Assembly (NCBI GenBank): GCA_026387615.1
Contig: JAPLLI010000152.1
Location: 1 to 38,109 of the forward strand
DNA length: 38,109 nt
Reading direction: 5' to 3'
DNA from: Nitrospirota bacterium
Lineage (GTDB): Bacteria > Nitrospirota > Nitrospiria > Nitrospirales > Nitrospiraceae
Below are positions 2,499-34,781 of the stretch, in pieces. The notes below the pieces were generated by a model that was not told the origin of the DNA, did not search any database, and saw only the letters and a list, made by a program, of their open reading frames with translations. The position numbers and the translations under genes were made by a program. The first letter of the stretch is position 1. The number at the start of each line of letters is the position of its first letter.

Positions 2499-2554
2499 AT
2501 ACGCGACACAGGCAAATCAATTAGGTATTTTAACTCATACGCGACGATTGCCAC
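2499..2554 (-). promoter_or_regulatory. Candidate sigma70-type promoter for the glycosylphosphotransferase gene, overlapped by a 9-bp direct repeat
   Basis: Minus strand: GTGGCA (2554..2549), 16-bp spacer, TAAAAT (2532..2527). Direct repeat ATACGCGAC (plus-strand reading) at 2499-2507 and 2537-2545. Confidence 0.35.
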
Positions 2555-2629
2555 GAGGGACCCGCGTGAGACCCCACCCATCAAACGTAAGGCGCTTTTG
2601 AGCCCCTCACGCTGTTCGATGATACGTGC

Positions 2630-3895: not shown

Positions 3896-3896
3896 G

Positions 3897-5558: not shown

Positions 5559-5568
5559 GCGAGGCCTC

Positions 5569-11440: not shown

Positions 11441-11449
11441 GTCGATGTG

Positions 11450-13917: not shown

Positions 13918-14719
13918 CTCGCTCTGCGATGGAAGCCAGCTCGCGGACATGGGCCACTTGCCGCGTGGAGACCAGAATCGACCCGGTTCTGTTCCTCCGC
14001 ATCGCCTGTTCCAATATCGCTCTTGCGTTCAATGATCCAGGCTGGGTGGAAGACGAGGACACATATCCGTAGGTCAGCTGCAAGGCGCGCCCCTGCGACT
14101 GGACGAGGTCCGCTTCCCTACCATCCAGACTGTCCTGAACTTGCAAGACCATGCCAAGCGGATGATCCACCGACAGCCAGGGCTCCAGGCAATCCACGGG
14201 ACCAGCTAATCCCCACGCGCGGATTCTCCCCCTGCCTTGCTCCTCCTTGAGCCAGTCCAGAAACATTCCTGATTGAACAACGCCCACAAGCGGCTCATGC
14301 AAGAGCAACAGATCAATGTGATCGATTTTGAGTCGGCGCAGGCTGCGGTCTAGGCTCTGTGACGCAACAGCAACGGACCAGTCGACCAGAGACCGGGACA
14401 CAGCAGGCCATACCCTGCCCGTTGCCTTCCGTAACCAGACAGAGGCGGTGTTGGGGTGCGAGCCGCCTGGCGGATACAGACCAACCTTCGTGGCGATCGT
14501 GACCCTGCCTTGCCGGCCTTGCACAAACTGCCCGACTTCCTGTTCGGCCATTCCGAACCCATAGGAGGGTGCCGTATCGAAGTGGGTCATGCCGTGATCG
14601 AAGGCCGCAGCCAGGAGATCTTGGCGCCGGCTGCTGGTTGGAAGGTAGTGCAGGCTGGCCGTCCCGAATGAGAGGCGAGACACAGAAATTCCGGCCCCCT
14701 GTAGCAGCACCTGGCGCAT
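13898..14719 (-). CDS. Aldo/keto reductase
   Basis: MRQVLLQGAGISVSRLSFGTASLHYLPTSSRRQDLLAAAFDHGMTHFDTAPSYGFGMAEQEVGQFVQGRQGRVTIATKVG...SLDRSLRRLKIDHIDLLLLHEP. Start re-chosen at 14719, overlapping the FkbM stop (TGATG). Confidence 0.9.
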   Translation of the reverse strand: MRQVLLQGAGISVSRLSFGTASLHYLPTSSRRQDLLAAAFDHGMTHFDTAPSYGFGMAEQEVGQFVQGRQGRVTIATKVGLYPPGGSHPNTASVWLRKATGRVWPAVSRSLVDWSVAVASQSLDRSLRRLKIDHIDLLLLHEPLVGVVQSGMFLDWLKEEQGRGRIRAWGLAGPVDCLEPWLSVDHPLGMVLQVQDSLDGREADLVQSQGRALQLTYGYVSSSSTQPGSLNARAILEQAMRRNRTGSILVSTRQVAHVRELASIAERDDGDNH

Positions 14720-15426
14720 CAGGTGATCCTGCTGGCAATGAGATGCGACGCATCCGGCCACAGCAGTGAAAAGCCAGAGGAGACCAGGAGCTGTTCGATA
14801 TCCGACGGCGCATGGGGCAGCCCTCGCTCCTTCAACAGGCTGAAATGGATCTCGATACACAGCGTCCTGACGCTTGCGTGCCGTAGCGTGAACTGAAGGC
14901 CCCGTAGCACATCCAATTCAAAGCCTTCGGTATCAATTTTGATGACATTCGGCCTGGCAACCCTGCCCGATGATACGAGATGGTCACCACTCGATAGCTG
15001 TACGGCGATCTGCCCTACTGACGCCCCGTCAGCCCTTGCGACGATTCGACTCGTCGCACCCAGGGAGTCAAGGCCTTGCTCAAATTGCACGACAGCTTCA
15101 CGATCCCCCAGCGCCACCGGCATCACCGTCACATTTCCCAGCGAAGCCACTGCCTCCTGGAGTCGCAACAGGTTGTCAGGGCTTGGCTCAAATGCCACCA
15201 CTTGTCCTGAGGGACCGGCCTTCTCAGAAAATTTCCTGGAATAGAGGCCCACGTTGGCGCCCACATCCCACACCAGGTCTCCTGGCCTGATCGCACCAAG
15301 CATCGCCACTTGAAATCGATCCTCATACCTCTCCCCGCCGAGGCACGAGGCCACGAGACGATTCACCCCGAGGGCACGACCCAAGTTCCGCATCAGCAAC
15401 ACCGTACGACTCGTTCTCCAACTCAT
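14719..15426 (-). CDS. FkbM family methyltransferase, copy 1
   Basis: RPGDLVWDVGANVGLYSRKFSEKAGPSGQVVAFEPSPDNLLRLQEAVASLGNVTVMPVALGDREAVVQFEQG...NVIKIDTEGFELDVLRGLQ. Confidence 0.9.
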   Translation of the reverse strand: MSWRTSRTVLLMRNLGRALGVNRLVASCLGGERYEDRFQVAMLGAIRPGDLVWDVGANVGLYSRKFSEKAGPSGQVVAFEPSPDNLLRLQEAVASLGNVTVMPVALGDREAVVQFEQGLDSLGATSRIVARADGASVGQIAVQLSSGDHLVSSGRVARPNVIKIDTEGFELDVLRGLQFTLRHASVRTLCIEIHFSLLKERGLPHAPSDIEQLLVSSGFSLLWPDASHLIASRIT

Positions 15427-15445
15427 AGAATGACCATTCGTATCT

Positions 15446-16597
15446 TCAATCTATGCGTACCCAGGGTGGAACCTCTCCACCCTCCATCACCCAGCGATAG
15501 GTCTGGTCCATCCTGGTCCCAACGCTGTGCCAGGAAAACTCTCGCATCATCCATTCGCGTCCATTTATTCCACGCCGCACTAATTCATCTGGCGATTGCG
15601 CCATCGCCTCCGTCAAACAGGCGACGAGCGCATCGATTCCCTGGTCGATCCACCAACCAGACCGGTGCGCCTCCAACCCTTGCCACGGCGCCCCCTTGGT
15701 CACGATGGCAGGCGTTCCGGCCGCTAAGGACTCGGCAACCGTCATGCCGAAGTTCTCCGAATGGGAAGGCAGGATAACGAGGTCGGCTTCTCGATAGGCT
15801 GTCCACTTGGCCTCACCGTATAGCGGCTCGACAAACTCTATTCGTGCCAGCTGCAGTTTCGCCGCGAGCGCTTTCATCTGTTCACGGTAGCCACCTTGCA
15901 CGCCATAGCCCCTATCCGTTCCCACAACCAATAGCCGCCAATCGGGAAAGCGAGGCATCACCCCGGCCCAGGCATTGAGCAGGACATCAATCCCCTTGAC
16001 CGGGTGGATGCGCCCTAAAAACAGCAACGTTCTGTCACAACTCACCGCTCGCGGCACGAACTCAGGCACATCAATCCCATTCGGAATCACGGCAACCGGC
16101 TGCAAGAAACCCAACCGTCGTATATCCTGGTACTCCGCCTCAGCCGTCGCATGAAAACAGGATGCCCCTGCCAGCGCTGGCCGTTGCAGCAAGGGCCAGA
16201 AGATCTTCTTGAACCGCGATCCGTGGCTCATAGCCCAGACAGACAATGCCCCGCGCGGTGACACGACCAGCTTTACCTTGCTGCCCTTTGCCGCCCACCC
16301 AGGGTACAAGGCATTCATCTGCCACATGCCATGGCTATGGACCACATCAGCCTTTCCCTCGCTGGTCTCGCCCATCAGCCAGCGAGACATGTCCGGCGAA
16401 CGGCCAAGCCGTCGAGGGCCGATTCCCAGCGGAAACACTTTCATAAACCCCGGCATGGACGGGAATGGAGACCAATCCAACGCTGCGAGGGTGACGTCCT
16501 CGCCGGCTTCCATCAACGATTGACAGAGCCGCACCACAGAATACGACGGACCGCTGGCCTCTTCTGTAATCGCGGGAACGACATGAATTACTCGCAC
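15446..16597 (-). CDS. Glycosyltransferase family 4
   Basis: VIHVVPAITEEASGPSYSVVRLCQSLMEAGEDVTLAALD...VVHSHGMWQMNALYPGWAAK...LLFLGRIHPVKGIDVLLNAW...LVILPSHSENFGMTVAESLAAGTPAIVTKGAPWQGLE. GTG start near 16597 preferred over 16642. Confidence 0.9.
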   Translation of the reverse strand: MRVIHVVPAITEEASGPSYSVVRLCQSLMEAGEDVTLAALDWSPFPSMPGFMKVFPLGIGPRRLGRSPDMSRWLMGETSEGKADVVHSHGMWQMNALYPGWAAKGSKVKLVVSPRGALSVWAMSHGSRFKKIFWPLLQRPALAGASCFHATAEAEYQDIRRLGFLQPVAVIPNGIDVPEFVPRAVSCDRTLLFLGRIHPVKGIDVLLNAWAGVMPRFPDWRLLVVGTDRGYGVQGGYREQMKALAAKLQLARIEFVEPLYGEAKWTAYREADLVILPSHSENFGMTVAESLAAGTPAIVTKGAPWQGLEAHRSGWWIDQGIDALVACLTEAMAQSPDELVRRGINGREWMMREFSWHSVGTRMDQTYRWVMEGGEVPPWVRID

Positions 16598-18405
16598 CCC
16601 GGCATCCCCTCCATGACCGTCCGCGCCCAGCGCCGCGCCCACGGTGTTCCAGACGCGCTCAGGAGAGGCAGCTCAGACCCTGCGCGCCTGTGCCGCACAT
16701 CCGACAACCACCGCTCCATGGGCAACGAAAAGCCCGTCTTGGGGCGATGCACGATTGAATCAGGCAGGGGCTTTTGGGGCGATTGCGCCAACAGCATCTT
16801 GCCGGCACGGCCCGCAAACCCAGAGGTGAACGGCCCAAGCGTTTCAAGCAATTTCGCATCCACCAGCGGCGTGCGCAGTTCCAGGGAATGGCCCATGCTG
16901 GCCCAATCGCTGTCGCGCAATAATTGATTGCGCAGATACAGCGTGGATTCCAGCAGACCAACCGCCGCGCCGCTATCCCTCGCGTGGGCTGATGTCATGC
17001 CTGGCGGGAACCCGCCGAGCCTTGCCAACCCCTCCCGCGCCAGATCCGCTCCCACCAATGCAGGCAGCTCGGCGGGCAGGAACAGGCAACGGCGCAGGAA
17101 ATACAACGATTCCAAGGAACCGGAAAACTGAGGCACACCGGCCAGCTTGGGCTGCACGCGCAACTTGGCAAGAGCCGCGAAGGGAACCTTCAACAAGGAT
17201 CTGGCGCCGGTGATGGACGAAAGCATCGCTCCCAGCGCCGCATACGACGGGAGTTGCTGGAACAATGAATAGCCGAAAAAAAGCTCATCGCCGCCGACCC
17301 CGGACAGCACCACTTTGTAGCCCCGTTCGGCCGCCGCCTTGCTGGCAAACCAGGTATTGACGCCATCGATGGAGGGCTGATCCATCGCCTCGATCATGTG
17401 CTGGGCCTCCTGCTCGAATTCAGTGCGGGTGACCCTACGGACGTAATGAGGCAAGCCGTAGTGGGCTGCCACGGCGCGCGCGCCAGGCACTTCGTCCTCC
17501 TGCCCGCCACCGAACTCGTCAAAACTGATCGTCACACCCTCTACCCTGACACCAGACTCCTGCGCCAAGCCGGCGATGGCCCCCGAGTCGATGCCACCGG
17601 AAAGAAACACGCTTACCGGCACATCCGACACCAGATGCGCACGCACGGAATCCGTCACGGCCTGACGCACCCGTGCCCGCAATTCATGCACGGAGGTCTC
17701 GCAGCCCTTGCTTTGCCAACGGGCTCGGATGTCCTGCCAACAAACTGGCGCATCCGCCACACCGTCGCAGATCCGTACCCAATGACCGGCTGGCAAAGCG
17801 AAGACACCCCGAAACAATGTCCAGGGCTCCGGCACAGTGCCCCAGAGATAAAAACCGGCCAGTCCGGCTGGCTCCCGTTCCGCCGACACCAGCCAGGATG
17901 CCAGCAGCGCCTTGACCTGAGACGCGAACAACAATCCGTTTTTCGTGCCGGTGTAGTAGAGCGGCTTGATGCCGTACGGGTCGCGCGCCAGGAACAGCTC
18001 TCGGGTGCGCGTATCCCAGATGGCGATGGCAAACATGCCACGCAGCCAGGGCAACATCTTCGTGCCTTCGCGCGCGAAGAGCGCCAGCAAGACTTCGGTA
18101 TCGGACGTGGTACGAAACGCCACGCCATCCGCCTCCAGCTCGCGACGCAACTCACGGAAGTTGTAAATCTCTCCGTTAAACACGATGGCGTAGCGGCCAT
18201 CGGCCGACAACATCGGCTGGTTGGCGCGCGACTCCAGATCGAGGATCGAGAGGCGGCGGTGACCCAGCACCACCGATGCAGTCGACCACAGGCCCTCCGC
18301 ATCGGGGCCGCGCCGGCGCATGTGAGCGGTCATCCGCCTGGTAGCCTCAATCGCCGGTGCGACCTCCGCCCCAGGCCGTAGAACCATACCGGCTATGCCA
18401 CACAT
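16588..18405 (-). CDS. asnB: Asparagine synthase (glutamine-hydrolysing) family amidotransferase, copy 2
   Basis: MCGIAGMVLRPGAEVAPAIEATRRMTAHMRRRGPDAEGLWST...YAIVFNGEIYNFRELRRELEADGVAFRTTSDTEVLLALF...VPVSVFLSGGIDSGAIAGLA...KVVLSGVGGDELFFGYSLF. Catalytic Cys2 and SGGIDS present. Start re-chosen at 18405. Confidence 0.93.
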   Translation of the reverse strand: MCGIAGMVLRPGAEVAPAIEATRRMTAHMRRRGPDAEGLWSTASVVLGHRRLSILDLESRANQPMLSADGRYAIVFNGEIYNFRELRRELEADGVAFRTTSDTEVLLALFAREGTKMLPWLRGMFAIAIWDTRTRELFLARDPYGIKPLYYTGTKNGLLFASQVKALLASWLVSAEREPAGLAGFYLWGTVPEPWTLFRGVFALPAGHWVRICDGVADAPVCWQDIRARWQSKGCETSVHELRARVRQAVTDSVRAHLVSDVPVSVFLSGGIDSGAIAGLAQESGVRVEGVTISFDEFGGGQEDEVPGARAVAAHYGLPHYVRRVTRTEFEQEAQHMIEAMDQPSIDGVNTWFASKAAAERGYKVVLSGVGGDELFFGYSLFQQLPSYAALGAMLSSITGARSLLKVPFAALAKLRVQPKLAGVPQFSGSLESLYFLRRCLFLPAELPALVGADLAREGLARLGGFPPGMTSAHARDSGAAVGLLESTLYLRNQLLRDSDWASMGHSLELRTPLVDAKLLETLGPFTSGFAGRAGKMLLAQSPQKPLPDSIVHRPKTGFSLPMERWLSDVRHRRAGSELPLLSASGTPWARRWARTVMEGMPGCE

Positions 18406-19622
18406 AGGTGTCCTGCCTTCTGCAGCAACCGGTCCCACACCTCCAGGAAGGCCAACCTCGCAACCTCCTCGGCATACCGCTGTTCGATTGTGGCGCGAGC
18501 CCGCTGACCCATCATCCGATTCAGCCCCTGGTTTCGATGCAGCCGCACGATCCGGTCAGCCAACGCTGCCACATCATCCAGGGGCACCAAGTACCCGTCT
18601 TCACCGTCAGTGATCAGGCTGTCCGGCCCGCCGCTGCGGGTGGAGACCACTGGAATTCCGCAAGCCATGGCTTCGAGCAACACCACGCCTAGCCCCTCTT
18701 CGTCCGACGGCAGTGCGAAGAGGTTCGCCTGCCGATACAGGGAGATCAGCTCATCGCGAGAGGGATGATGGAGAAACGCAATCCGGTCTCGGAGGCCCAG
18801 AGCCTCAGCCCTCTGCCAAAAACTATCCGCTGGTCCGGCGTGGCCCGCGAGCACCAGCCTCATGCGACTGCGGATATCCAACGGGATCAGCGCATAGGCC
18901 TCCAGCAGCAGGCCAATGTTCTTGCGCGGGTCGTCCAACCGTCCGACACACAACACATAGGGATCACGGTCTAAGGTGCGTTCACTGCCAGGACAAAACG
19001 AATGGGCGTCGACGCCGGGCGGGGCATAACGCAAATCCACCTCGCGACCGTCATTGAGCTCGCGAGCATACTCATACATCCAGAGATTCTCGACCTGGAT
19101 GGCGTTCACAGAATGAAGGGCCCAGTTGTCTATCCGATCCGTAATTTCAGTCATGCCTTTGCGCCACCAGCCGGCCAGCCCTACCGGATTGGCATCGCGC
19201 CGGCGTCGCTCGACTCTGGCGCGCGTGGCGCATTGCACAGACACCGGCTTGCCCAGGCCACAGACGGCATAGGCCGAAGCGGGCGAGCCACAAATCACCT
19301 GTAACAGGTCGCAGTCGGCCACGGCCTCGGCCAACACTCTTCGAGGAAGATAGCGCTGAAACTCCAGCTCACCCGCCACCGCTCCGACAGACACGAACGG
19401 CAAGCCCTCCCAGGTGCCCTGAAAACTGGTCGCGCCGCGCCACCAGCTCCCAGGCCGTGAGAGGCCAACGCTGCTCGCATCCTGCGCTGACGTCGCCAGG
19501 GATATGAGCTTGAGATCGTATCGGTCGGACGACAACACCACATCCTTCACGAAGCGCGCGACGGCAGGCACACCTCCGCCTTGCTCAAGAGAGGGGACGA
19601 CGAGTCCAATGCAAGGCTTCAC
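18393..19622 (-). CDS. Glycosyltransferase family 4
   Basis: VKPCIGLVVPSLEQGGGVPAVARFVKDVVL...YVLCVGRLDDPRKNIGLLLEAYALIP...ANLFALPSDEEGLGVVLLEAMACGIPVVSTRSGGPDSLITDGEDGYLVP. GTG start at 19622 overlaps the upstream stop (GTGA). Confidence 0.9.
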   Translation of the reverse strand: MKPCIGLVVPSLEQGGGVPAVARFVKDVVLSSDRYDLKLISLATSAQDASSVGLSRPGSWWRGATSFQGTWEGLPFVSVGAVAGELEFQRYLPRRVLAEAVADCDLLQVICGSPASAYAVCGLGKPVSVQCATRARVERRRRDANPVGLAGWWRKGMTEITDRIDNWALHSVNAIQVENLWMYEYARELNDGREVDLRYAPPGVDAHSFCPGSERTLDRDPYVLCVGRLDDPRKNIGLLLEAYALIPLDIRSRMRLVLAGHAGPADSFWQRAEALGLRDRIAFLHHPSRDELISLYRQANLFALPSDEEGLGVVLLEAMACGIPVVSTRSGGPDSLITDGEDGYLVPLDDVAALADRIVRLHRNQGLNRMMGQRARATIEQRYAEEVARLAFLEVWDRLLQKAGHLCVA

Positions 19623-20338
19623 AGTGTTGCCGCCTCTTTGCGCAGGACGACCATCATGTTGGGAGAGATCACCGCGCTGCCATGCCCCATCAGGACCTGT
19701 CGAATGAATGAAAAGACCACCGTCTGCAAGCCACGAACTGCCATCCGTCGCGCAGCACGCAGGGGGCCGAGACCCCACAGGGGCAGCACAGGCGAACGGA
19801 CTTGGGACACCTCGAAGCCTGCTTCCAGGGCCAATTGCCGTATGGCGCCGGATCCCAGGAGGGTACGATGGGTGAGATCCCCACGATAGATCGCCAGTGA
19901 GAAGGGACTGTCGCCACTGGGAAGGCGCACCAGCAACAGTCCCCCGGGCCTGAGGGCTTCGTTGGCCTCGCCCAGGAAAGAACGAATGGCATCGAGTTCC
20001 AGGTGTTCGATCACATCGAAGGCCACCATCAAATCAAACGTTCCAGGCCCATAGGCATGAGAGAACGCCTCCTTCGACGGGATGACCTTAAATCCAGCCC
20101 CTACGGCACGGTGCTGCAACTCCGAAATGGCCTCACGGCCCACCCACTGTCCACCGGCGCTTTGCACCCAACCGGCAAACGCGCCATTGCCATAGCCCAA
20201 CTCCCCGACCAGCAGCCCGAGCACAGAGGTCATCCCGCTGGCCTGAAGCTCTTGCTCGTAATAGAGGGCATCCTCAGTGCAACACCGACCGAAATCAGTT
20301 CCCTGCCAGCCCTTCCAGCCCACATAACCGTTCGTCAT
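19619..20338 (-). CDS. Class I SAM-dependent methyltransferase
   Basis: LGLLVGELGYGNGAFAGWVQSAGGQWVGREAISELQHRAVGAGFKVIPSKEAFSHAYGPGTFDLMVAFDVIEHLELDAIRSFLGEANEALRPGGLLLVRLPSG. Confidence 0.87.
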   Translation of the reverse strand: MTNGYVGWKGWQGTDFGRCCTEDALYYEQELQASGMTSVLGLLVGELGYGNGAFAGWVQSAGGQWVGREAISELQHRAVGAGFKVIPSKEAFSHAYGPGTFDLMVAFDVIEHLELDAIRSFLGEANEALRPGGLLLVRLPSGDSPFSLAIYRGDLTHRTLLGSGAIRQLALEAGFEVSQVRSPVLPLWGLGPLRAARRMAVRGLQTVVFSFIRQVLMGHGSAVISPNMMVVLRKEAATL

Positions 20339-21411
20339 GCCTCTCCCCTGGACGGGTTGCGCGACGTGAGGAGCTGCTCAATATGTCGTAAGACGCTCGC
20401 GGCCCGCTGCGGAATGGCATAGGCTGGCACCGCTCGCGCATGGGCTCTGGCCGCCATCACCCTCCGCCCCGCCTCGTCCGGTAACCAGCGACGCACCAGA
20501 CCGGCAAGCTCATTGGCATCACTCCACAGCGGAACCTCCTGTTGCTCGTCATACAGGGTGGCCACATAGTCGGTCCGTTGATGCAGGAAAAAACAATGGG
20601 CAGCCGCCAGTTCATACGTGCGTGTCGTGTCCATATCACCCCGTTGCGTGACGCCGCGAATCACCACCTCGCCGTTGACCGGCGCGATCACGATCTTGGC
20701 TGAGCGCAAGAACTCGCCATAGGCCCGTCCCACTCTGGGCCCGCAATACTCCCAATGGTGGGGAAGCTCGGCACGAGGGGCGTCCCATCCAGGGCCGGCG
20801 ACCACCACCGACACGGAATCATCATCCAACGCTTCGGCGAAGGCGCGCATCAGTCGATGGTATTCCGGGCGCCAGGTGCCGCACAGGGCTACGTCATACG
20901 ACTGCGAGGGCATCGGGACAGACCAATAATGCACCTCAGGGTCATAGCCATGCGGCACACAGACACAAGGGTTGCGGTAGCCATAGCGCGACTGCCAGAG
21001 CTGTGGATGAAAGGGTTTGGTCGAAATAACCAGGTCGTAGCGACCCATTGCGGCTTGAAGCCTGCGGCCATAGGCATGGGGCGAATAATCGGGAAACACA
21101 TTGACCGTAGGAATGTCTGCGCACCGGATCGCGTTCAACAGACCTGAGCCGATGCCCGCCCCCTTGTACACCACGATCACATCGGGGCGACATTCACTGA
21201 TGGCGCGGAGCACGGCACACTCCAGCTCCTGCCTCTGTAGCGGCCGCAATAATCGATTGGCGAGGCGCAACAGGAGGCCTCGATGATTGGGAAGGAAGCG
21301 ATCTTCCCCGACCTCATGCATCACCACTGAAGGATCCAGCGCGAGCGCCTCGCACAAGGACCGGGCACTGGAGCCCTGCCAGGTATCACCGACAAAGAGA
21401 ATACGTGTCAT
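20335..21411 (-). CDS. CgeB-like glycosyltransferase family protein
   Basis: MTRILFVGDTWQGSSARSLCEALALDPSVVMHEVGEDRFLPNHRG...DVIVVYKGAGIGSGLLNAIR...DTTRTYELAAAHCFFLHQRTDYVATLYDEQQEVPLWSDANELAGLVRRWLPDEAGRRVMAARAHARA. The C-terminal pattern is typical of CgeB/glycosyltransferase family 1-like proteins. Start re-chosen at 21411. Confidence 0.8.
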   Translation of the reverse strand: MTRILFVGDTWQGSSARSLCEALALDPSVVMHEVGEDRFLPNHRGLLLRLANRLLRPLQRQELECAVLRAISECRPDVIVVYKGAGIGSGLLNAIRCADIPTVNVFPDYSPHAYGRRLQAAMGRYDLVISTKPFHPQLWQSRYGYRNPCVCVPHGYDPEVHYWSVPMPSQSYDVALCGTWRPEYHRLMRAFAEALDDDSVSVVVAGPGWDAPRAELPHHWEYCGPRVGRAYGEFLRSAKIVIAPVNGEVVIRGVTQRGDMDTTRTYELAAAHCFFLHQRTDYVATLYDEQQEVPLWSDANELAGLVRRWLPDEAGRRVMAARAHARAVPAYAIPQRAASVLRHIEQLLTSRNPSRGEA

Positions 21412-22883
21412 CCTGCCCGGCCTCTCTGACTGAGGCGCGGACTCAAGACCACACCGACACAGACGAGGCAGCAGGCCAAGACAAACGTCCCGCAGTAGTC
21501 CGGCAGAAATCCCCCGTCGATGCGAAAGGCCATGAAGCTGCCGAGCAAAGCCAGCGGCATCCACAGCAGCGCCCGTGCTCGATAGACCTCAACCGCAAAG
21601 GCCGAAGTCCAGGCCAACATGCACCCCACGGCGACCCCCACCGCCACCACGCCCCACCAACCCAAGTTGTAGTACCCGTCCACAAAGACGCCGATGCCGG
21701 TCGAGGACGTGTCCATGCCCGTCACCTTGTAGTGAAATCCTGGCCCACTTGCGGTCATCACGGGTTTGTCGGAAAAGAGCACACGAGGCAGGAACACCCA
21801 GCCCAACAGACGGTAATCTTCACCGCCTTGGTCCATATCGTAAAAGTTCAGCGCGGCGCCCTGGGGAATCAAATAACAGAATCGCACCCAGGGATAATAC
21901 TTACTCTCCGTGGCGGCATGGCTTGAGAGGAAGAAGCTATCGGACAGGAAGGTTGTACGCTCATGCCAGTCGACCTGGTCGCCCAGCACCTGCATGTCTC
22001 GCGCGGTATTGACCGGGTTCCCGATCAATAGGTAGACCGCCAGGAGCCCAGCCACACCGGGAACCATCACGCGGCGAACGCCCAGCCGCCAGGCCAGCCC
22101 CACAAGCAGCGCCACCATCGGCTGCAACACGCTGGACTTGTTCAACAGCAGCAGGCCGCCCACGGCCTGAAGCCCTGTCAGCACAATAGCCAATGACAAG
22201 AGCCAGACAGAGCCGCGGCCACGATGGGCCGCCGCCACCGTAATGGCGACCAGCAACAAGCGCGACAACATGCGAAAGAGGCCGGACACCACCTCGCCGG
22301 GATGCGGATCAAGATCAAACATGAGCACATTGAATGAGCTCATCCCACCGGCCAGCAAGAATCCCGCGATGATCCATTCCTGCGGGATGAACTGCCCCAA
22401 GCCGATGGCCTTCTGCGCCAGGCCGGACACCCACTGCCGCCCGATCAAGGACCCCGAAACAAGGGCCAGACCAAACCCGATGCAGTTGACCGCCGTGACA
22501 CGCAGGGCCAATACCGCATCTATTCTATAGTACGACTGAGCCACCTCTACTTCTTCCTCCGAGCCAAAAGGGATCAGCAACGCACCGATCACGTAATAGG
22601 CAATGAAGGCACAGGACAACACCAGTAGGTGATCTCCCAGTACGTCCGCGACCCCCTTGCACAAGGTTCGCCACATCGCAGGGAGCAGCATCAGACCACT
22701 CGCGATACTGAAGCCTCCGACCACCCACCACTCATCAGCCTGAATGGATGTGTGATAGACCCACGCAACAACGCCCAGTCCGAAGATCGCAACCCCGGGA
22801 CCCCACCATACGGGGTTCGACCTAGGAGCACTGACGACAGCCTGCCCCTGCTGCCGCTTGGGTACTGGCACGGCACTCACCAT
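21408..22883 (-). CDS. Wzy-like O-antigen/oligosaccharide repeat-unit polymerase (multipass membrane protein)
   Basis: Many predicted TM segments (VAWVYHTSIQADEWWVVGGFSIASGLMLLPA, LLVLSCAFIAYYVIGALLI, LLVAITVAAAHRG, GVAGLLAVYLLIG), a large loop ending in GYYNLGWWGVVAVGVAVGCMLAW, and position next to flippase and glycosyltransferases. Confidence 0.75.
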   Translation of the reverse strand: MVSAVPVPKRQQGQAVVSAPRSNPVWWGPGVAIFGLGVVAWVYHTSIQADEWWVVGGFSIASGLMLLPAMWRTLCKGVADVLGDHLLVLSCAFIAYYVIGALLIPFGSEEEVEVAQSYYRIDAVLALRVTAVNCIGFGLALVSGSLIGRQWVSGLAQKAIGLGQFIPQEWIIAGFLLAGGMSSFNVLMFDLDPHPGEVVSGLFRMLSRLLLVAITVAAAHRGRGSVWLLSLAIVLTGLQAVGGLLLLNKSSVLQPMVALLVGLAWRLGVRRVMVPGVAGLLAVYLLIGNPVNTARDMQVLGDQVDWHERTTFLSDSFFLSSHAATESKYYPWVRFCYLIPQGAALNFYDMDQGGEDYRLLGWVFLPRVLFSDKPVMTASGPGFHYKVTGMDTSSTGIGVFVDGYYNLGWWGVVAVGVAVGCMLAWTSAFAVEVYRARALLWMPLALLGSFMAFRIDGGFLPDYCGTFVLACCLVCVGVVLSPRLSQRGRAG

Positions 22884-23689
22884 GTTTCCCGAAACCAGTC
22901 GCGTATCAGCCTCGCCGCCGGCCTCAATCGCCGAAAGATCGGACCGACGACACAATACCGTTCAAGTCGTGCTAACCGCTTTGCGCGTACGTGAGATTCA
23001 TTGAAGCTACGTGACGCCCCAAGGTGCGTGAATCCGGAAGGCAGCTCGATCGACGCGACCCGCCACCGACCCTGGCATGCGACCCGCTGCTGATAGTCCC
23101 GCTCCATATCGCTCATGGTCATGCCTTCCCGATATCGGCCGATGTCCTCGCAGAACTGTCTGCGCTTCACGTGCGGCTGATCCGAGTAGGGTCGCGCGCC
23201 ACTCTCTCGCAGGCGAGGCACTCCGTCGTTTTCGTAGATCCGATACCGCAGCCCCTCTCCGAGGCACCTCATGTCATGGGCAATGCCAGGCGTTTGATGT
23301 GTCAGTTGAACGGTGCCGACATCTGGATCTGATCGAAGTATATGCAAGGCTGTGGCGAGCAATGTTCGACCGCCGACAAACTCGCAGTCATCCTGAACTT
23401 GCAGCACATAGTCTCCCTCCGCAGCCGCGAGGCCCTTATTGCAATTATGCCCCAGGCCCATGGTGGCCGTGGACAGGACATATTTATCGAAGGGGAGCGA
23501 TCGTATCCGTGCAAGATGCGTTGGCTCACTCGCATCATCAGACACGAGGAATTCAACCCGCAACCGTCCAAAATCAATTCGTTCGCGAATGGCCAGGAAG
23601 GCCGTCTCCAAAAGGTCGGACCGGTTGTACGTAATGAACAGGACGGACAGGTCGATTCCACGACGCGGCACGGGGGGTTGCTCACGCAT
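22877..23689 (-). CDS. Glycosyltransferase family 2
   Basis: IDLSVLFITYNRSDLLETAFLAIRERIDFGRLRVEFLVSDDASEPTHLARI...MGLGHNCNKGLAAAEGDYVLQVQDDCEFVGG. Confidence 0.87.
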   Translation of the reverse strand: MREQPPVPRRGIDLSVLFITYNRSDLLETAFLAIRERIDFGRLRVEFLVSDDASEPTHLARIRSLPFDKYVLSTATMGLGHNCNKGLAAAEGDYVLQVQDDCEFVGGRTLLATALHILRSDPDVGTVQLTHQTPGIAHDMRCLGEGLRYRIYENDGVPRLRESGARPYSDQPHVKRRQFCEDIGRYREGMTMSDMERDYQQRVACQGRWRVASIELPSGFTHLGASRSFNESHVRAKRLARLERYCVVGPIFRRLRPAARLIRDWFRETW

Positions 23690-25130
23690 GCTGTACCCCC
23701 GATGCAGTCCGAAGCTCAGTCAAGAGGCCGGCAGTCCACCCGCGTGAGCAAATGGCATACACGAGGCCGCCATAGACCGCGAACACGGCACACAGACTTC
23801 CGAACTGAAGCTCCAACCCGATGCTCAGCAAGACCGCTAAACTGCCGGCCAGCGCGACAAGCAGCACAAACGATCGCACGTTCTGGTGCGTGCCAGCCCT
23901 AGGGCCTAGCACTTTCCCGAGCCAGGAGAGGGTCACCCCAGCCGCCCCGATCTGGGTTGCACTCCGCGCAACGGCAGCGCCTTCGATCCCAAAGCTGGGG
24001 ATCAACACAAATGCCGCCACGAACAACGCAATGCCCCCGACCATGGTCACATCCCGCGCAAACTTGCCGTTGGCCGACGCCTGGATCACCAAATGCGCGC
24101 ATCCGGACGCCAGCCCCAACGGTCCCAACGCAAGAATCAAAACCAGCCGCGAACTTGAGACGAATCTCTCGCCGAACAACAGCGCGACAAGATAGGGCGC
24201 AAAGCACATCACAAATCCCGCAGACAGTCCGGCCATGAGCATCAAGAGGTTCGTCACACAACTGGAGAACCGCCAGAGCTCATCTCGATCCCCCTTGTCC
24301 CAGGCGCGCGCAATGTGTGGCCACAGCGCGCCCGTGAAAAGACCTATCCCTTGGTTCACAATCCCGGAAATGGTGAGACCGACGGAGTAATAGCCAACCG
24401 CCATTTCACCGAGGTGGCCCTTCACGACCGAGATCTCTCCACGCGACCATACGAGTGACGCAACGATTGCGGTTAACCAGGAATTTGTCGCGTAGGATCG
24501 AATGAGTATTGAATCTGCAGCCGCCAGTGGCTCGTTGTGTGAAATCCGTTTGCCGTCAAAAATGTCCATAACACAACAGGCTCCCGCGGCCAGGTTGGCC
24601 GTCGCGACGGCGAGCATGGCCCCCAGGAAATCACCGCCTATTTGCGGAAGCGCCAGCCCCACCAGCGCGACGGCGACGTACAACGTGGACGAAGCCACGA
24701 ACCGTTTGAACTGGAACAGGCCCTGTGCGCGCGCGCCCAACAGAGCCCAGACCGAAGAGGTCGCAGCCCAAAACGTCACGACCGTAACTGGTGCGACACG
24801 ACCAAGATCTGAAAACACCTGGACCGCCACGGTCGCAAAACAACTCGTGAGCAGAACCACGAGCGCGCCGACGCGAAGGAACCAGCGATTGAAACCAGGG
24901 ATGAGGTCCCGGTCCATGCCGGCAGACCGAGGAAAAAACCGCGTGGCCACTCCCGTTAGCCCTACCGAATAGATTAAAAACGTCATCTCGATCAGCCATT
25001 GCACGAACACGAACAGACCAAACAACTCGGGGCCAAGCCGCCTCGCAAGGATCACGGTGACGGCCATACGGCCGATCACGTTCATGATATTGCCGGCCGC
25101 GCTCCACGATGTATGGCGTACGAGAGACAA
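23682..25130 (-). CDS. Wzx-like oligosaccharide flippase
   Basis: SLVRHTSWSAAGNIMNVIGRMAVTVILARRLGPELFGLFVFVQWLIEMTFLIYSVGLTGVATRFFPR and many hydrophobic segments along 482 aa, typical of polysaccharide flippases of the MOP superfamily. Confidence 0.87.
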   Translation of the reverse strand: MSLVRHTSWSAAGNIMNVIGRMAVTVILARRLGPELFGLFVFVQWLIEMTFLIYSVGLTGVATRFFPRSAGMDRDLIPGFNRWFLRVGALVVLLTSCFATVAVQVFSDLGRVAPVTVVTFWAATSSVWALLGARAQGLFQFKRFVASSTLYVAVALVGLALPQIGGDFLGAMLAVATANLAAGACCVMDIFDGKRISHNEPLAAADSILIRSYATNSWLTAIVASLVWSRGEISVVKGHLGEMAVGYYSVGLTISGIVNQGIGLFTGALWPHIARAWDKGDRDELWRFSSCVTNLLMLMAGLSAGFVMCFAPYLVALLFGERFVSSSRLVLILALGPLGLASGCAHLVIQASANGKFARDVTMVGGIALFVAAFVLIPSFGIEGAAVARSATQIGAAGVTLSWLGKVLGPRAGTHQNVRSFVLLVALAGSLAVLLSIGLELQFGSLCAVFAVYGGLVYAICSRGWTAGLLTELRTASGVQHA

Positions 25131-25241
25131 GGATCAGCCGTGAGTCCAGAACATCAAAATGTGAACGTCTTCCCGCCTAGACATGGTTCGTACCTCATAA
25201 ATAAAGCCGGTGCTCACCCGAGAGCTACAACGAGAACTACG

Positions 25242-26153
25242 TTAGCGTGAAAGCCACCCCTCTTCTGGTCGAAGGAACAGCGCATCGTAGTGCTGCCGTC
25301 CAGCTAACGCGCAACTGAGCGGGGACAACTCGAGTTGTGACAGGAAGGTCAGTTTGGGAATATAGGCCTGAAACCCCTGTCCCAGCATCAGGTTGAATAA
25401 CTCCTCCGCGGAGCCGCCCAAGTCCCGTAGCCATTGGTCTGTGATCTCGACCAGAAACCCCGTGCGGGGACGCGTCAGCAACGACGGCCACCCCTTCAGG
25501 GCTCGCAATTCGTAACCCTCCACGTCCATTTTCACAAGAATCCAAGTGTCCGATGGCCAATCGCGACGCACATCGTCTCCGCGCATGATTTGGATCTTCG
25601 CGCCACTGCTATCGGCGTGCCGCAGATTCGCTTTACTGGAATGCTCGTCGAGATCGAGCACTCCCTCCACCATGGCATCGCCTAACGCGTATCGATACAC
25701 CGTCACGTTCTCGATCCTGTTATGCAGCAATGCGCGATCGAGCCGATCCGCCATAGCTGTGAATGGTTCGAACGCCAACACCTTGCCTTCGCGGCCAACT
25801 GCCCGTGACGCCGCTAACGTCACAAAACCTAAATTGGCTCCCACGTCGATGAAGTAGTCCCCTTGGCGAAGCAGCCTCACGACTGTCGCCGTGACATCAA
25901 TCCCCCAATAACATCCAAGGAAATAGGCGAAGCGTTCCATGGGATCATCGAGCTGGAGCTCCATCTCGTAGCGATGAGGGCTCACCCGTCGCCGCTTCAC
26001 AATGCCCGAGCATCCCGTCTCTCCAAAATGGCTCCCGACCATGCGCCTATAGAATCGGGCCTTCCACCAAGGCGGAAACAGACGAATGAGCGGCGCAACG
26101 GCCGTCAGCATCGTGTGGCGAAATTGCTGGCCGGAAGGCATCATCGGCAACAT
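25242..26153 (-). CDS. FkbM family methyltransferase, copy 2
   Basis: GDYFIDVGANLGFVTLAASRAVGREGKVLAFEPFTAMADRLDRALLHNRIENVTVYRYALGDAMVEGVLDLDEHSSKANLRHADSSGAKIQIM...WILVKMDVEGYELRALKGWPSLL. Start re-chosen at 26153 (MLPMMPSGQQFRHTM). Confidence 0.9.
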   Translation of the reverse strand: MLPMMPSGQQFRHTMLTAVAPLIRLFPPWWKARFYRRMVGSHFGETGCSGIVKRRRVSPHRYEMELQLDDPMERFAYFLGCYWGIDVTATVVRLLRQGDYFIDVGANLGFVTLAASRAVGREGKVLAFEPFTAMADRLDRALLHNRIENVTVYRYALGDAMVEGVLDLDEHSSKANLRHADSSGAKIQIMRGDDVRRDWPSDTWILVKMDVEGYELRALKGWPSLLTRPRTGFLVEITDQWLRDLGGSAEELFNLMLGQGFQAYIPKLTFLSQLELSPLSCALAGRQHYDALFLRPEEGWLSR

Positions 26154-26155
26154 TC

Positions 26156-26998
26156 CTATCTCGGGCTCCCAACATTCGACCCGTCGAACTGCACCGTCGA
26201 GCCGAGCAAGCACAATGGACTGTCATTCCTGATCAACACATAGTTATTTTCGAAAAAGCGATCGAGTTCAAAGTGCCATTGGTCATAGAATTCCACGGCA
26301 TGACCGACCAACTTGCCCAATCGATAGGGTTTATCCGAGATCAGATCGAACACATCGCGCAGGCAGGCATGATTGAGTAACCATCGCCAGTTGTACTCGA
26401 ACTGCACAAGATCGATCCGCCCCTCGCGCAATGACTGTTCGGCGCCTCGCAACACGAGCAGATCAAACCCTTCCGTATCAATCTTGAGCATCGAGACCGA
26501 CTGTATCTCCGACCGATGTACGAATTGATCAATAGTCATGCGCGTGACCGCTTCGACGCTCAAGCCCGAAGACGGCGAAAGCGAATTCGTGCCGGCGCCC
26601 GCCTCGTGGCTATAGAACAGAGCCTCCCCTTCCGTCTCAGCAAGCGCACAGGGATGCACGGTGACAGCAACGGCTCCTGCGAATCGAGCCGTCAGCATCG
26701 CCCTGGTGGCCAGTGATGGCTCGAATGCATGGATCTTGACCTCGTTTGGCGCTGGGATGACCCCTAACGCATAGGCCGTCCAGTCGCCTTTATTTGCGCC
26801 AACATCGAGCAATATCGTGGGCCCTGGTGAGGCGCTCAGGACCTGCTCAAGCAGCCAATATTCACCGTTGGTGCGCGAGTCATTCTGACCGTCACCGCGG
26901 GCGCAGGTATACAGAGCCCGTCCCACACGCCACATCAGTTTTCGGATCACCGCAGACGCACACATGGATTGCATCAGTGCCGTACTCCTCACGGTCAT
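26156..26998 (-). CDS. FkbM family methyltransferase, copy 3
   Basis: PTILLDVGANKGDWTAYALGVIPAPNEVKIHAFEPSLATRAMLTARFAGAVAVTVHPCALAETEGEALFYSHEAGAGTNSLSP...VSMLKIDTEGFDLLVLRGAEQSLREGRIDLVQFEYNW. Start re-chosen at 26998 (ATGA overlap with the upstream stop). Confidence 0.9.
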   Translation of the reverse strand: MTVRSTALMQSMCASAVIRKLMWRVGRALYTCARGDGQNDSRTNGEYWLLEQVLSASPGPTILLDVGANKGDWTAYALGVIPAPNEVKIHAFEPSLATRAMLTARFAGAVAVTVHPCALAETEGEALFYSHEAGAGTNSLSPSSGLSVEAVTRMTIDQFVHRSEIQSVSMLKIDTEGFDLLVLRGAEQSLREGRIDLVQFEYNWRWLLNHACLRDVFDLISDKPYRLGKLVGHAVEFYDQWHFELDRFFENNYVLIRNDSPLCLLGSTVQFDGSNVGSPR

Positions 26999-28293
26999 CC
27001 TTTCCGAACAGATCGGCGCAATGCTGCCGTCATGCCCTGGCGGCATTGTTCATAGCTCCAGCCGCTGATGAGGGCCAGGCTGGCCGCGCCCATACGCTGT
27101 CTCTGGGGCTCATCGGCCAGCAGCTTGCCGAGGGCCCTCACCAGAGAGCCGACATCACCCGCTTTCATGAGGTACCCGTTGGCGCCATCCTTGACCAGGT
27201 CAGGGACACAGCCAACCTCCTCGGAGACCACCACCGGAATGCCGGCGCACATCGCCTCATTGACGATTAAACCCCAGGGCTCGTTCTCGGACGGAAGCAC
27301 GAAGACATCAGCCACGGCATAGCAGCTGGGCAGCTCGGCCTGGTTGATGAAGCCGCCAAAGACGACGGTCTGCAAACACAGCGACTTCGAGAGCTCGCGT
27401 AGCTCCTGCTCCATCTCGCCGGTCCCAACCATGAAGAGCGTGACGGTCTGGCCTGCGTCGCGCAACCGCGCTATCGCCCGGATCACATCATCCGGGTGCT
27501 TGCGGCGCATGAACTTCGACGCGTAGAGCACGACCGGCCCGCCGGCCGGCAGGCCATATTTCTCCCTAGCTTTTGCGCGCTGCCCTGGCACCAAGGCTGC
27601 CGCAGCGATGAAGCGATCGTTATCTACCGTGTAGGGCACGTCAAAAATCTTGTCCTCTGGCACCCGCAACGCGCGGTAATAGGCCCGATTGGCCGTGCCG
27701 ATGGCCAGGAACCCATCGACGAAACGATAGGCAACGGATAACACGGCATCCCGAATCCAGCGTTTCCATCCCTTCCGCTGGAGGCCCAGATGCGTCTCCG
27801 AACGCATGAACACGGGCAGACCCTTGGTTGAAGCGGCCAGGAACGCAAGAATATTCACGGCGTAGCTGTACCCATGCAGCAAGACTGCGTCGTAGCGGCC
27901 ACTCCGAATCTCGGACCAGACTTGCGGACAGATCAACGACCAAAAGCCGCCTGGTGTGCGCTGTCTGGCTTCCTCGCCGAGAAAGACGGACCGATACCCG
28001 GACAACAGATCGACATCCCACGTGACCGCCTGCCGAAAGCCAGGATCAATGGCCCCACGCAGGCTGAAGTCACTGCAATAGAGGGCCGTCACTTCCAGCG
28101 CCGGATCGCGGGTGAGGTACGCATAGAGCGGAGCGAAGTATTGGATCGGGTGTGAATTGACCACCGCCAATCGAACAACATGAGTCACGGTGACACCAAT
28201 CGCCGTCCTCCGAAACCGACACCAAGATTCGTCGGAATCCAACGAGGGAGCATGGCAATGCTGAGAATGGACTCCCAGCGCAACAGCCGGCAC
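26995..28293 (-). CDS. Glycosyltransferase family 4
   Basis: VVRLAVVNSHPIQYFAPLYAYLTRDPALEVTALYCSDFSLRG...VVLYASKFMRRKHPDDVIRAIARL...VFVLPSENEPWGLIVNEAMCAGIPVVVSEEVGCVPDLVKDGANGYLMKAGD. The real start may be a GTG near 28189 (VTHVVRLAVV); the first ~35 residues of the ORF-track version look non-coding. Confidence 0.88.
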   Translation of the reverse strand: MPAVALGVHSQHCHAPSLDSDESWCRFRRTAIGVTVTHVVRLAVVNSHPIQYFAPLYAYLTRDPALEVTALYCSDFSLRGAIDPGFRQAVTWDVDLLSGYRSVFLGEEARQRTPGGFWSLICPQVWSEIRSGRYDAVLLHGYSYAVNILAFLAASTKGLPVFMRSETHLGLQRKGWKRWIRDAVLSVAYRFVDGFLAIGTANRAYYRALRVPEDKIFDVPYTVDNDRFIAAAALVPGQRAKAREKYGLPAGGPVVLYASKFMRRKHPDDVIRAIARLRDAGQTVTLFMVGTGEMEQELRELSKSLCLQTVVFGGFINQAELPSCYAVADVFVLPSENEPWGLIVNEAMCAGIPVVVSEEVGCVPDLVKDGANGYLMKAGDVGSLVRALGKLLADEPQRQRMGAASLALISGWSYEQCRQGMTAALRRSVRKG

Positions 28294-28327: not shown

Positions 28328-30562
28328 TCATGATGTACTCACCTGGCGGCCATAGGACTTTCGTTGAGACGAGGCGTAGTACTCGCTGTAATAGGCGGAA
28401 AGATCGCATTGCTTCAATTGCTGCATGACGACTCCCAGAATCTTCGTCTGGTGAGCCTGCAAGAGACGGACGGACGCCTGAGCCATTTCGTGAGTCGTGT
28501 GGGCCGCATGCACGACCAGAATGGTGCCGTCCACCGCGTGGTGACTCACAATCGCCGGATCAGACACGGCCAGCATCGATGCGCAGTCGATGATCACGTA
28601 CAGGCCTTCCGTCCTGAAGCTTTCGAGGAGATCCTGCATGTACGTGGACATGAGTAACTCCACAGGATTGTGGGGCACGGCCCCGCAAGGGATGAGCAGG
28701 AGATTGGGCACGACAGTCGGCTGCACGATCTCCATGAGCTCCGCTTCACCAACCAGGTACTGGCTTAACCCTTTCTCCACAGTGAAGCCAAATACCTGGT
28801 GGAGACGAGGATTTCGCAAGTCACCGTCAATCAACACCGTCCGATGACCCATTTGTGAAAACGCGATAGCCAGATTGATGGCGAAGGTTGTCTTCCCCTC
28901 CCCCTTGGCCGCACTGGTCACCACGAAGGACGTGGGCGGTTTTTCGGACTCAGAAAGCAATAAACCGGTTCGAATAGAGCGGATCTGCTCGGCAAAAATC
29001 GAATGCTGATCTTCATGCGCGATCAGGGCTGCGCCGGAGGGATGACGGCGGGATCGCCGGACAGCGGGCAGAAATCCTAGGAAGGCCAGACCCCGGAGGG
29101 ACTGCGCCACATCCTCCGGAGACTTGAGCGAGTTGTCGGCAATGTCTAGAAACACAATCAGCCCAACCGCGCCCAACAGGCCAAACAGGGTAGCCAACAG
29201 GACAGTCTGTGTCCTCTTCGGTTTGACCGCCACGAGCGACACGATGGCCGGATCCATCACGTAGATGTTACTCGTGCGAATTTCTGTCGTGATATCGGTT
29301 TCCTTCATGCGTTTAAGGAACATGCTATACAGCTGCCGATTGCTCTCCGCTTCCCGTAGGAGAATGCCGTACTGTACTTCGTGCTGGCCTGTTTGCAGGA
29401 CTTCGGTCTTCTGCTGGCTGAGGGCTTGGCGAAGTGTGCGTTCACGGGCCGCGGCAACGTCATATTCCGACTTCACCGAGGTGTACACCTTTTTGATCTC
29501 CAGTTGAATGCGGCGCTGGATTTCATTCATCTCAGACGTTGCCTGCACCATCGCCGGGTGCTTCGGCCCATATTTGTCTCCGAGCTCCGCGACCTTTTGC
29601 CCCGCCTGAATCTCCTGGTTCCGCAGTAATTGGATGAGCCCGGAACTGAGAACCTCGAAGGAGGACTCCAGTTCTCGCGGGTTGTCGATGACCGAGGCAA
29701 TCTGTTTAAACCGAGCCTCTGCTTCGGCCCGTCGGGTTTCTGCATGGACCAACTGAGTCTGCAACTCGCTTAATTTCTGCGTCACGAGGCGTTGCCGGTC
29801 GCCGACATTCACGAGACCGACTTGACTGGAAAACTCCTGTAACGCTCGCTCCGACTCTTCGACTTTCCGGCGAATCTCTTCCACCCTCAACGTGATCCAT
29901 TTTGTCGCTTCTTCGGCTGCGCCAACTTTTATAGCCAGGGAGCGAGAAATATACACCGAGGCAATCATGTTGGCGGCATCCGCCGCGAGTTGCGGATGGG
30001 TGGATTCGACTGCGACCCGGATGATGCGGCTATTCATGACCGGCTTGACTGCGACGTGCGCGCCGAACGCTCTGACCAGCCGTCGCTCGGCCTCACCATC
30101 GACTACGCCGCTCGCGTGATCAGGCTGCGTCGATGTTGCCGGAAACAAGACCGAAAAGAACAACGTTTTCGGGTCCGGCATCCATGAATCCAATGGCTCC
30201 GGTAACTTCACCAAGTATTCAGGGTGGGTCTGCAGGCTCAGATTCAAGACCACTTCGCGGAGGATCTGATAACTTTTGACGATTTCATATTGGGTCTTAT
30301 AATAATCACTGTTCATCGTGGCGGGTATATAGACTTCCTCAACCGTCTTGGACACCACATTCGGTCCGGTCGGCTCCACCAGGATGCTGACCGTGGATTC
30401 ATAGACCAACGGTTGCAGCATGACGGCGCGCGTCGTCCCGACGATGACGAACGCGACAAGGCCAAGAAGAATCCATTTCCGCTTGCGAATGATGCGGACA
30501 TACTTACGCAATGGAGCTGGAGCAATTTCAAGCGGCTGGGCTGATGAAGGGGGATAGTCCAT
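28328..30562 (-). CDS. Wzc-like polysaccharide co-polymerase / tyrosine autokinase
   Basis: Wzz-type N-terminus (PLRKYVRIIRKRKWILLGLVAFVIVGTTRAVM), coiled-coil middle, Walker A VTSAAKGEGKTTFAINLAIAFSQMGHRTVLIDGDLRNPRLHQVFG, tyrosine-containing tail LSAYYSEYYASSQRKSYGRQVSTS. Confidence 0.93.
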   Translation of the reverse strand: MDYPPSSAQPLEIAPAPLRKYVRIIRKRKWILLGLVAFVIVGTTRAVMLQPLVYESTVSILVEPTGPNVVSKTVEEVYIPATMNSDYYKTQYEIVKSYQILREVVLNLSLQTHPEYLVKLPEPLDSWMPDPKTLFFSVLFPATSTQPDHASGVVDGEAERRLVRAFGAHVAVKPVMNSRIIRVAVESTHPQLAADAANMIASVYISRSLAIKVGAAEEATKWITLRVEEIRRKVEESERALQEFSSQVGLVNVGDRQRLVTQKLSELQTQLVHAETRRAEAEARFKQIASVIDNPRELESSFEVLSSGLIQLLRNQEIQAGQKVAELGDKYGPKHPAMVQATSEMNEIQRRIQLEIKKVYTSVKSEYDVAAARERTLRQALSQQKTEVLQTGQHEVQYGILLREAESNRQLYSMFLKRMKETDITTEIRTSNIYVMDPAIVSLVAVKPKRTQTVLLATLFGLLGAVGLIVFLDIADNSLKSPEDVAQSLRGLAFLGFLPAVRRSRRHPSGAALIAHEDQHSIFAEQIRSIRTGLLLSESEKPPTSFVVTSAAKGEGKTTFAINLAIAFSQMGHRTVLIDGDLRNPRLHQVFGFTVEKGLSQYLVGEAELMEIVQPTVVPNLLLIPCGAVPHNPVELLMSTYMQDLLESFRTEGLYVIIDCASMLAVSDPAIVSHHAVDGTILVVHAAHTTHEMAQASVRLLQAHQTKILGVVMQQLKQCDLSAYYSEYYASSQRKSYGRQVSTS

Positions 30563-31152
30563 TAGAAAAAACTCTGTGGCACGACGACGATATCGTCGGG
30601 GAATACGGGATCTTGCAGAATCACGGAAAGGGTTTCCTCTTCTTTGTCTTTCTGCCGTTTGATCTTAATCCGTCCAGTCGAGGCCTTGTCGGTGAAGCCG
30701 CCAGCCATCGTGGCCGCCTTGAGGACCGTCAGCCCTTCTTCATAGGGATAGGCGCCGGGTTTCTTGACTTCACCCGAGACGAAGACGCTTCGGTATCTGG
30801 TGATATAGACGCTGACCCTCGGGTTCTTAAAGTACCCGTCGGCCAGCCGGACCATGATCAATTCTTCCGTTTCTTTGACCGTGAGCCCTTGCGTGTTCAA
30901 GGCGCCAATGAACGGCAACACGATCCTGCCCTCTCCGCTGATCCGAGTCTCGGTCGTGAGCCCCTCTTCGCCAAAAACCTGGACTCGAATAATGTCGTTG
31001 ACGCCGAGTTTGTACCCGGGATTCGGCGTGCTACCTTGAACCGACTGATCGGCCTGCCCGCTCTCGAACAGGGACGCCGCAGACGAGGCGCAGACGAACA
31101 GAAAGAGGCCCAGTGCAAGTGACAACAAACATGTCATCCGCGCCTTCTTCAT
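30562..31152 (-). CDS. Polysaccharide export protein, short Wza-like (Poly_export plus SLBB)
   Basis: Signal-peptide-like N-terminus, then YKLGVNDIIRVQVFGEEGLTTETRISGEGRIVLPFIGALNTQGLTVKETEELIMVRLADGYFKNPRVSVYITRYRSVFVSGEVKKPGAYPYEEGLTVLKAATMAGGFTDKASTGRIKIKR. Stop overlaps the Wzc start (TAATG). Confidence 0.92.
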   Translation of the reverse strand: MKKARMTCLLSLALGLFLFVCASSAASLFESGQADQSVQGSTPNPGYKLGVNDIIRVQVFGEEGLTTETRISGEGRIVLPFIGALNTQGLTVKETEELIMVRLADGYFKNPRVSVYITRYRSVFVSGEVKKPGAYPYEEGLTVLKAATMAGGFTDKASTGRIKIKRQKDKEEETLSVILQDPVFPDDIVVVPQSFF

Positions 31153-31160: not shown

Positions 31161-32413
31161 TCAGAACTGGGCTTGAATCGAGGCCATTGTCTGATTGGCG
31201 TTATACTGTACGCTCATGACGTTGGACAGCCGTTCGGTATAGAGATAGGTCAGGCGCGCGCCGAGCCATGGCTGGATCTGGTACCACAGGCCGCCGCCAA
31301 ACGTCAGATAGTCATCCTGCCGCGCACCTCGTGTGCCGTCGCCGAAAATCTGGTCAGAGTAGGTGTCCCGCTCATAGTTGACCTGCGCCGTGACGTTCCA
31401 TTTCCTGGTCACCGCATGCACCATATCCAGCCTGGTGCCCGTGGCTGTGTAGTACAGGGTATTGGCCAACACGGTCTCACTGGTCCGGCGATAGAGGTTC
31501 CAGTTGAGGTGCGTTTGCTCTTGGGGCTTCCATTGCATGCCGCCGTTCATGTACAGACCGCTACTCGCTCCAGATCCACGGGTGCTGGCACGGTCCATAT
31601 TCCTGGTCTGCCACCCCACAGAAAACTCACCCGCTGACTTGGCGGTCCCTTCCCAGATAACTCCCAGGGCTCCGGTATAGATGGCGCTATCCAGGTCTTT
31701 GTTGACCTCATAGTGCTCCCGCTGAAACAAACCTTGGACAAAGAGATATGTTTTTTGGGCAACCCGCCCCCCGAGTGCCAGCGACGAATAGCTCTCTTGT
31801 CGGTTCCTGGTATTGATGTCGCCCATCGAGTTGGGATCACGCGAGCCGGCCAATGGCCCGGTAAATTGCCAACGAATCGATTTAAACTGCGCCTTCACGT
31901 AGCTCTGGCTCTTGAATTCAAGCTCACCGCCATACTCGTTATTAAAAAATTTGTTAATGGTCGAGCCGGTGCTGACACCCTGAATGATATTTTCAGTCGC
32001 AGACCCACGGTAATCGTATACGCCCGGTAGTCCATGATGATTCTGTGGCGCCCCATGACAGGAAGCTGAATTTGCAGACCAGGCTGGTAGGTCGTATACC
32101 AATCGGCCGTCCTGCCGCCGAACGTCTTATCCGTTCGAAGCACGTTATCCGTATAGTTTTCCGCAATGCCGAGGTGGGGATGGAGTAAAAACGGGCCAGC
32201 CTTCACGTTGCCCTCTTTCATGGGAATCACGGTCAAATCGATACCGGACGGATAAATATTGTATGGCACGTTGGTGAATCTTGATTGCTGGGTCAGAAAG
32301 GGATTCAAGGGAATCACGGTCGCCACGGGTGTAATTTCTGCTCGTGCATGAAGGGGGACGGTTCCAAGAAGAAATAGTCCTAGCGCCGTGACGATGTAGC
32401 GAATTCTTGGCAT
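31161..32413 (-). pseudogene. Outer-membrane beta-barrel exopolysaccharide protein (BBP2-like), split by a frameshift near 32008..32035
   Basis: Frame A: MPRIRYIVTALGLFLLGTVPLHARAEITP...LHPHLGIAENYTDNVLRTDKTFGGRTADWYTTYQPGLQIQLPVMGRHRIIMDYRAY. Frame B continues: DYRGSATENIIQGVSTGSTINKFFNNEYGGELEFKSQSYVKAQF...LSNVMSVQYNANQTMASIQAQF, with alternating beta-barrel texture and a terminal F. Neither half is complete alone. Confidence 0.8.
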
Positions 32414-32415
32414 GA

Positions 32416-32444
32416 GGCCACACGATGGACCTGGTGGTGTGACC
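32416..32444 (-). promoter_or_regulatory. Leader hairpin abutting the start codon of the first exopolysaccharide gene
   Basis: Minus strand GGTCACAC-N13-GTGTGGCC, 8-bp stem with one G-U pair, 2 nt upstream of ATG 32413. Confidence 0.4.
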
Positions 32445-32634
32445 TTCAGCAAGGCAACAATCTCTGTCTCGCGCTCACGCCCATAGGCCAATCACCATGT
32501 CTGTCCTGTCGATGGGGCTGGCGCCGCCCATAGCTTCGCCCTTTCACTTACAGGCGCAACGGGCGGGCGGCGAATACGTTGTCGCGTCCTGGCAAGGAGG
32601 ATCTTGGCGAGAAGTTTGGCCTACGACGAGGAAG

Positions 32635-33768: not shown

Positions 33769-33797
33769 GCTAGTGAGTCACAGTGAACAACGCCGAC

Positions 33798-34773: not shown

Positions 34774-34781
34774 TTATTCGC

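Follow-up and report, generated by a model that had tools for sequence, protein, structure and literature searches.

The window analysed here is the whole of one contig (38,109 bp, containing no N) from a metagenome-type Nitrospirota draft assembly of 2.64 Mb in 281 contigs that is 88.9% complete. In this contig, a gene for a predicted outer-membrane beta-barrel is divided between two reading frames, and the question is whether the organism has lost the gene, switches it, reads it as two parts, or carries it intact behind a fault in the draft.

We determined the setting of the gene from Pfam and NCBIfam matches. The exopolysaccharide block lies on the minus strand between 32413 and 1018, its genes in the order barrel, short OPX protein, Wzc-like kinase and then the remaining polysaccharide genes (Table 1). 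The barrel gene is thus the first of the block, as the first-pass annotation had it. A SpoU-type RNA methylase gene, unrelated to the block (Pfam), sits upstream of the barrel gene, and no further split genes were noticed within the block. It was also noted that block genes (1018-32413) with a counterpart in the genome of the nearest relative, G001, mostly share 57-75% identity with it, while genes beyond the block (32962-37911) share 83-94%, and that the distance from the barrel gene to the SpoU gene is approximately 6-7 kb in G001 compared to approximately 0.5 kb in the window. Because of this contrast between block and flank and the differing spacing, the exopolysaccharide block looks like a fast-changing locus.

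Table 1. Coordinates of the split barrel gene and of its neighbours in the exopolysaccharide block (positions of the window).
Feature	Position	Strand	Basis
Barrel, N-terminal part: signal peptide and first strands, through ...IIMDYRAY	32018..32413	-	Alignment with G001; weak BBP2_2 match
Join lacking approximately 121 nt, where every relative has 41 residues, with a frame change	32013..32020	-	Alignment of relatives
Barrel, C-terminal part, DYRGSA...QAQF, open to the natural stop	31164..32015	-	Alignment with G001; BBP2_2 match; third-position bias
Short OPX protein for polysaccharide export (196 aa), presumed to partner the barrel	30562..31152	-	Pfam, NCBIfam; neighbour of the barrel in G001 and two soil MAGs
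Chain-length determinant / tyrosine autokinase (Wzc-like PCP)	28328..30562	-	Wzz, GNVR and AAA domains; eps_fam kinase above cut-off
Rest of block: glycosyltransferases, methyltransferases, flippase-like protein, sugar-modifying enzymes; initiating sugar transferase at the far end	1018..28293	-	Pfam

Two reading frames of one barrel gene

The minus-strand frames 31895..32491 and 31161..32102 were found to code for the N-terminal and the C-terminal portion of a single barrel protein, in agreement with the first-pass annotation, as both align to one open frame of 482 aa in G001. The N-terminal part spans 132 codons from a probable start at ATG 32413, placed by its signal-peptide-like beginning and by the alignment, and is 73% identical over 110 aa to G001 residues 50-157. 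The C-terminal part, read from 32015, is 64% identical over 284 aa to residues 199-482. The proposed assignment to the BBP2 type was likewise confirmed by matches to the Pfam family BBP2_2, which are clear in the C-terminal part (profile positions 163-378, E 1.7e-20) and weak, below the cut-off, in the N-terminal part (profile positions 8-63, E 0.0018).

We then considered whether either part has begun to degrade. The dN/dS ratio relative to G001 was saturated at synonymous sites for both parts, and codon-position bias was used instead. The differences from G001 fall mainly at third codon positions, as they do in the intact neighbouring genes, and both parts look like genes under constraint with no trace of decay. 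The event that separated them is therefore either very recent or not real.

The stretch absent from the join

In the window, only 2 nt (32017-32016) lie between the codons TAT (32020-32018) and GAT (32015-32013). In G001, by comparison, the match to the N-terminal part runs to residue 157, and that to the C-terminal part begins at residue 199. We found 41 residues between DYRAY and DYRG in all eight relatives that span this point (G001, G040, G053, G019, G018, G004, G044 and G057, of which G040 and G053 are genomes of the same order as that of the window), with a gap-free alignment there. Setting the 41 residues of the relatives against the 2 nt of the window, approximately 121 nt are missing, a size on which all of the relatives agree, and the frame changes. 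It had been claimed that one extra base would repair the gene; with a conserved 41-residue stretch gone, altering a single base would not recreate the protein of the relatives. The accompanying remark that the site has no long homopolymer was correct.

The missing piece was also searched for directly. With the 41-residue piece of G001 as the query, it was recovered in each of the six relatives searched (E 6e-4 or better) and was not found by the same search in the window's own assembly. A shuffled or relocated cassette was rejected on these results, since the piece is nowhere in the assembly while being detected in six relatives. Collapse of a repeat at the join was also rejected, the 19-base join sequence being present once in the genome with 2 mismatches allowed.

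Because both frames are open and conserved, the barrel could in principle be produced in two separate pieces, or a programmed frameshift could yield a single protein. However, the C-terminal part has no signal peptide, and the gene encodes a single protein in every relative that spans the point. With a stretch missing that is universal in the relatives, neither option would equal their barrel, and no relative was found that has this arrangement and lacks the stretch as well. We consider either form of split expression highly improbable.

The first-pass annotation had also drawn attention to an imperfect 17-bp tandem similarity at the site, from which it suggested slipped-strand gain or loss. 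The similarity is real (12/17), and its interpretation has changed. The two stretches, GACTACCGGGCGTATAC / GATTACCGTGGGTCTGC, encode DYRAY and DYRG, which are 41 residues apart in G001, where a D-Y-R motif stands on either side of the 41-residue piece (VDYRAY ... HDYRGS). They are adjacent in the window because the intervening stretch is absent, and they represent the retained flanks of the missing piece and not a footprint of slippage. Slippage between the two copies would leave one of them; as both are kept, it did not make the deletion. Neither a repeat tract nor direct repeats whose copy number would explain the change, the hallmark of slipped-strand events, were found at the join.

These observations bear on the suggestion that the barrel undergoes phase variation through slippage at this similarity, a suggestion in keeping with the presence of the similarity at the site and with the position of the gene at the head of an export block. 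However, a local switch could not put back a stretch that is nowhere in the assembly, and no relative carries the gene in an off state here. With no repeat to drive it, unsplit relatives, and similar gaps in housekeeping genes (below), the phase-variation reading is unsupported, and we give it only a very slight chance of being right.

Out-of-frame gaps elsewhere in the assembly

Comparable gaps were sought in a sample of approximately 600 kb of the window's assembly, compared with approximately 640-830 kb of G001, the only close reference. Among 147 genes testable at the protein level, four contained clean out-of-frame gaps (CoaBC, TilS, the barrel and ClpB), and a DNA-level comparison added CarB; the names CoaBC, TilS, CarB and ClpB are taken from NCBIfam. 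Relative to G001, the gaps measure 362 nt in CoaBC, 122 in TilS, 121 in the barrel, 83 in CarB and 55 in ClpB, and all are N-free and out of frame. The gaps in CoaBC (L098 near 1637, G000:C62) and TilS (L100 at 1034|1035, G000:C64) show no shared bases at the join, and at the DNA level the matches on their two sides abut exactly on the draft side. Protein identity on either side of the gap is 95-98% in CarB (L108 near 1347, G000:C230) and 96-97% in ClpB (L112 near 23482, G000:C234).

It was noted that CoaBC has one locus in the assembly and TilS one match above the family cut-off, and that both of these are the broken copies. CarB and ClpB weigh less, because other partial ClpB-like matches occur in the assembly (C114 and C62) and the sole-copy result covers CoaBC and TilS. 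In the reverse comparison, the genes of G001 contained no out-of-frame gaps of at least 15 nt and only two in-frame ones, while frame differences of a few nt were encountered in both directions between the draft and G001. Two candidate frame changes were discarded, one in the upstream part of a TsaD-like gene and one in a LigA-like gene, where the shift falls just as the stop-to-stop frame opens, ahead of the likely gene start. A separate difference was observed at L092 (near 7727-8102, G000:C56), where the draft lacks approximately 226 nt and, slightly further on, has approximately 96 nt extra compared to G001.

CoaBC and TilS are normally essential, and a cell deprived of both would not be expected to live. 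Taken with the absence of the missing piece from the assembly, the unsplit relatives, and the similar joins in four other genes including these two, this makes a local assembly error in the draft the probable cause of the split. Two pieces of one barrel gene would have been joined with approximately 121 nt omitted, shifting the frame, and the join itself would be absent from the real chromosome. The first-pass annotation was therefore right to allow for an error in the sequence. Several points count against an assembly error: neither an N nor any visible trace of a scaffold gap marks the join, the survey covers a sample of the genome set against one close reference, and, at 88.9% completeness, the assembly could lack additional copies of the housekeeping genes.

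Errors of this type have precedents. Local assembly errors in metagenome assemblies leave incomplete or incorrect protein-coding genes (PMC7111523), and scaffolding errors in short regions have been documented (PMC5079060). The present case resembles those described in these reports (PMC7111523, PMC5079060) in that short regions are misjoined, protein-coding genes are rendered incorrect, and several sites are affected in one assembly. It differs in that the joins here are gap-free deletions deduced from relatives, while the standard test is read support.

The same evidence was weighed for a real and very recent deletion of approximately 121 nt that inactivated the barrel, leaving a strain or sub-population that no longer exports the polymer. 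The clean, N-free join and the otherwise undamaged state of both parts are what a recent event would be expected to leave, and exopolysaccharide loci turn over fast, as the contrast in identity between this block and its flanks illustrates. However, the same kind of gap occurs in genes not expected to be lost from a living cell, including CoaBC and TilS, the join has no direct repeat to explain the loss, and the remainder of the block appears intact. We regard a real deletion as unlikely, although it is a more serious contender than switching or split expression.

The export pair and the meaning of the split

We sought to place the intact gene among known export systems. In a composite OPX/beta-barrel translocon, the proposed role of the barrel is to take the polymer through the outer membrane (PMC9601211, PMC9603273), and in Myxococcus xanthus the EpsX barrel is needed for export, its loss strongly reducing exopolysaccharide (PMC9601211). 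An OPX protein of such a translocon is recognized by a length not exceeding 280 aa, the presence of Poly_export and SLBB domains, and the lack of an outer-membrane-spanning C-terminal helix. The OPX protein of the window has 196 aa, with Poly_export and one SLBB domain and no match to Wza_C (Pfam); its predicted model, which is partly confident and weak in this part, has no long C-terminal helix. Two features of a composite translocon are thus present, namely a short OPX protein and a coupled outer-membrane beta-barrel gene, the latter split in the window. The two genes are adjacent in the window, in G001 and in two soil MAGs.

Among solved structures, those nearest to the OPX protein are polysaccharide export proteins, including short ones of 185-186 aa. 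The barrel was less informative: the AlphaFold model of an intact relative's barrel has a mean pLDDT of 30 and is unusable for counting strands (18 in the composite translocon), and a PDB search with the C-terminal part returned weak matches only (best E 0.008).

Compared to EpsY/EpsX (WzaX/WzpX) of Myxococcus xanthus, the window is alike in that a short OPX gene directly adjoins the barrel gene and that the exopolysaccharide block also holds a Wzc-like gene. It differs in that its barrel belongs with the BBP2_2 and EpsL-like sequences, which PMC9601211 and PMC9603273 do not name, and in that the window copy is split. EpsL (TIGR03014) is an XrtB/PEP-CTERM-associated outer-membrane protein, and the C-terminal part matches its positions 222-385 (E 4.1e-17); at 62.3 bits against a cut-off of 275, with the parts scanned separately, the barrel is a relative of EpsL and not a member by the model. 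The intact relatives fit a short-OPX and beta-barrel pair for polysaccharide export, and from this likeness we infer that the barrel would serve that export.

As this locus shows, what looks like a small frameshift in a draft genome that has not been curated can turn out to be a far longer missing stretch, and examining housekeeping genes from the same assembly helps to separate artefact from biology without reads. Caution is warranted with any other apparent pseudogenes in this assembly. Were the less likely deletion real, a natural Nitrospirota population would have had its export barrel knocked out, yielding a polymer-negative lineage with the block otherwise intact, an ordinary case of lost polysaccharide export. 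If, as is probable, the split is a local assembly error, the barrel gene is most likely intact in the organism, where it would encode an outer-membrane beta-barrel forming the exit route of the polymer together with the adjacent short periplasmic OPX protein.
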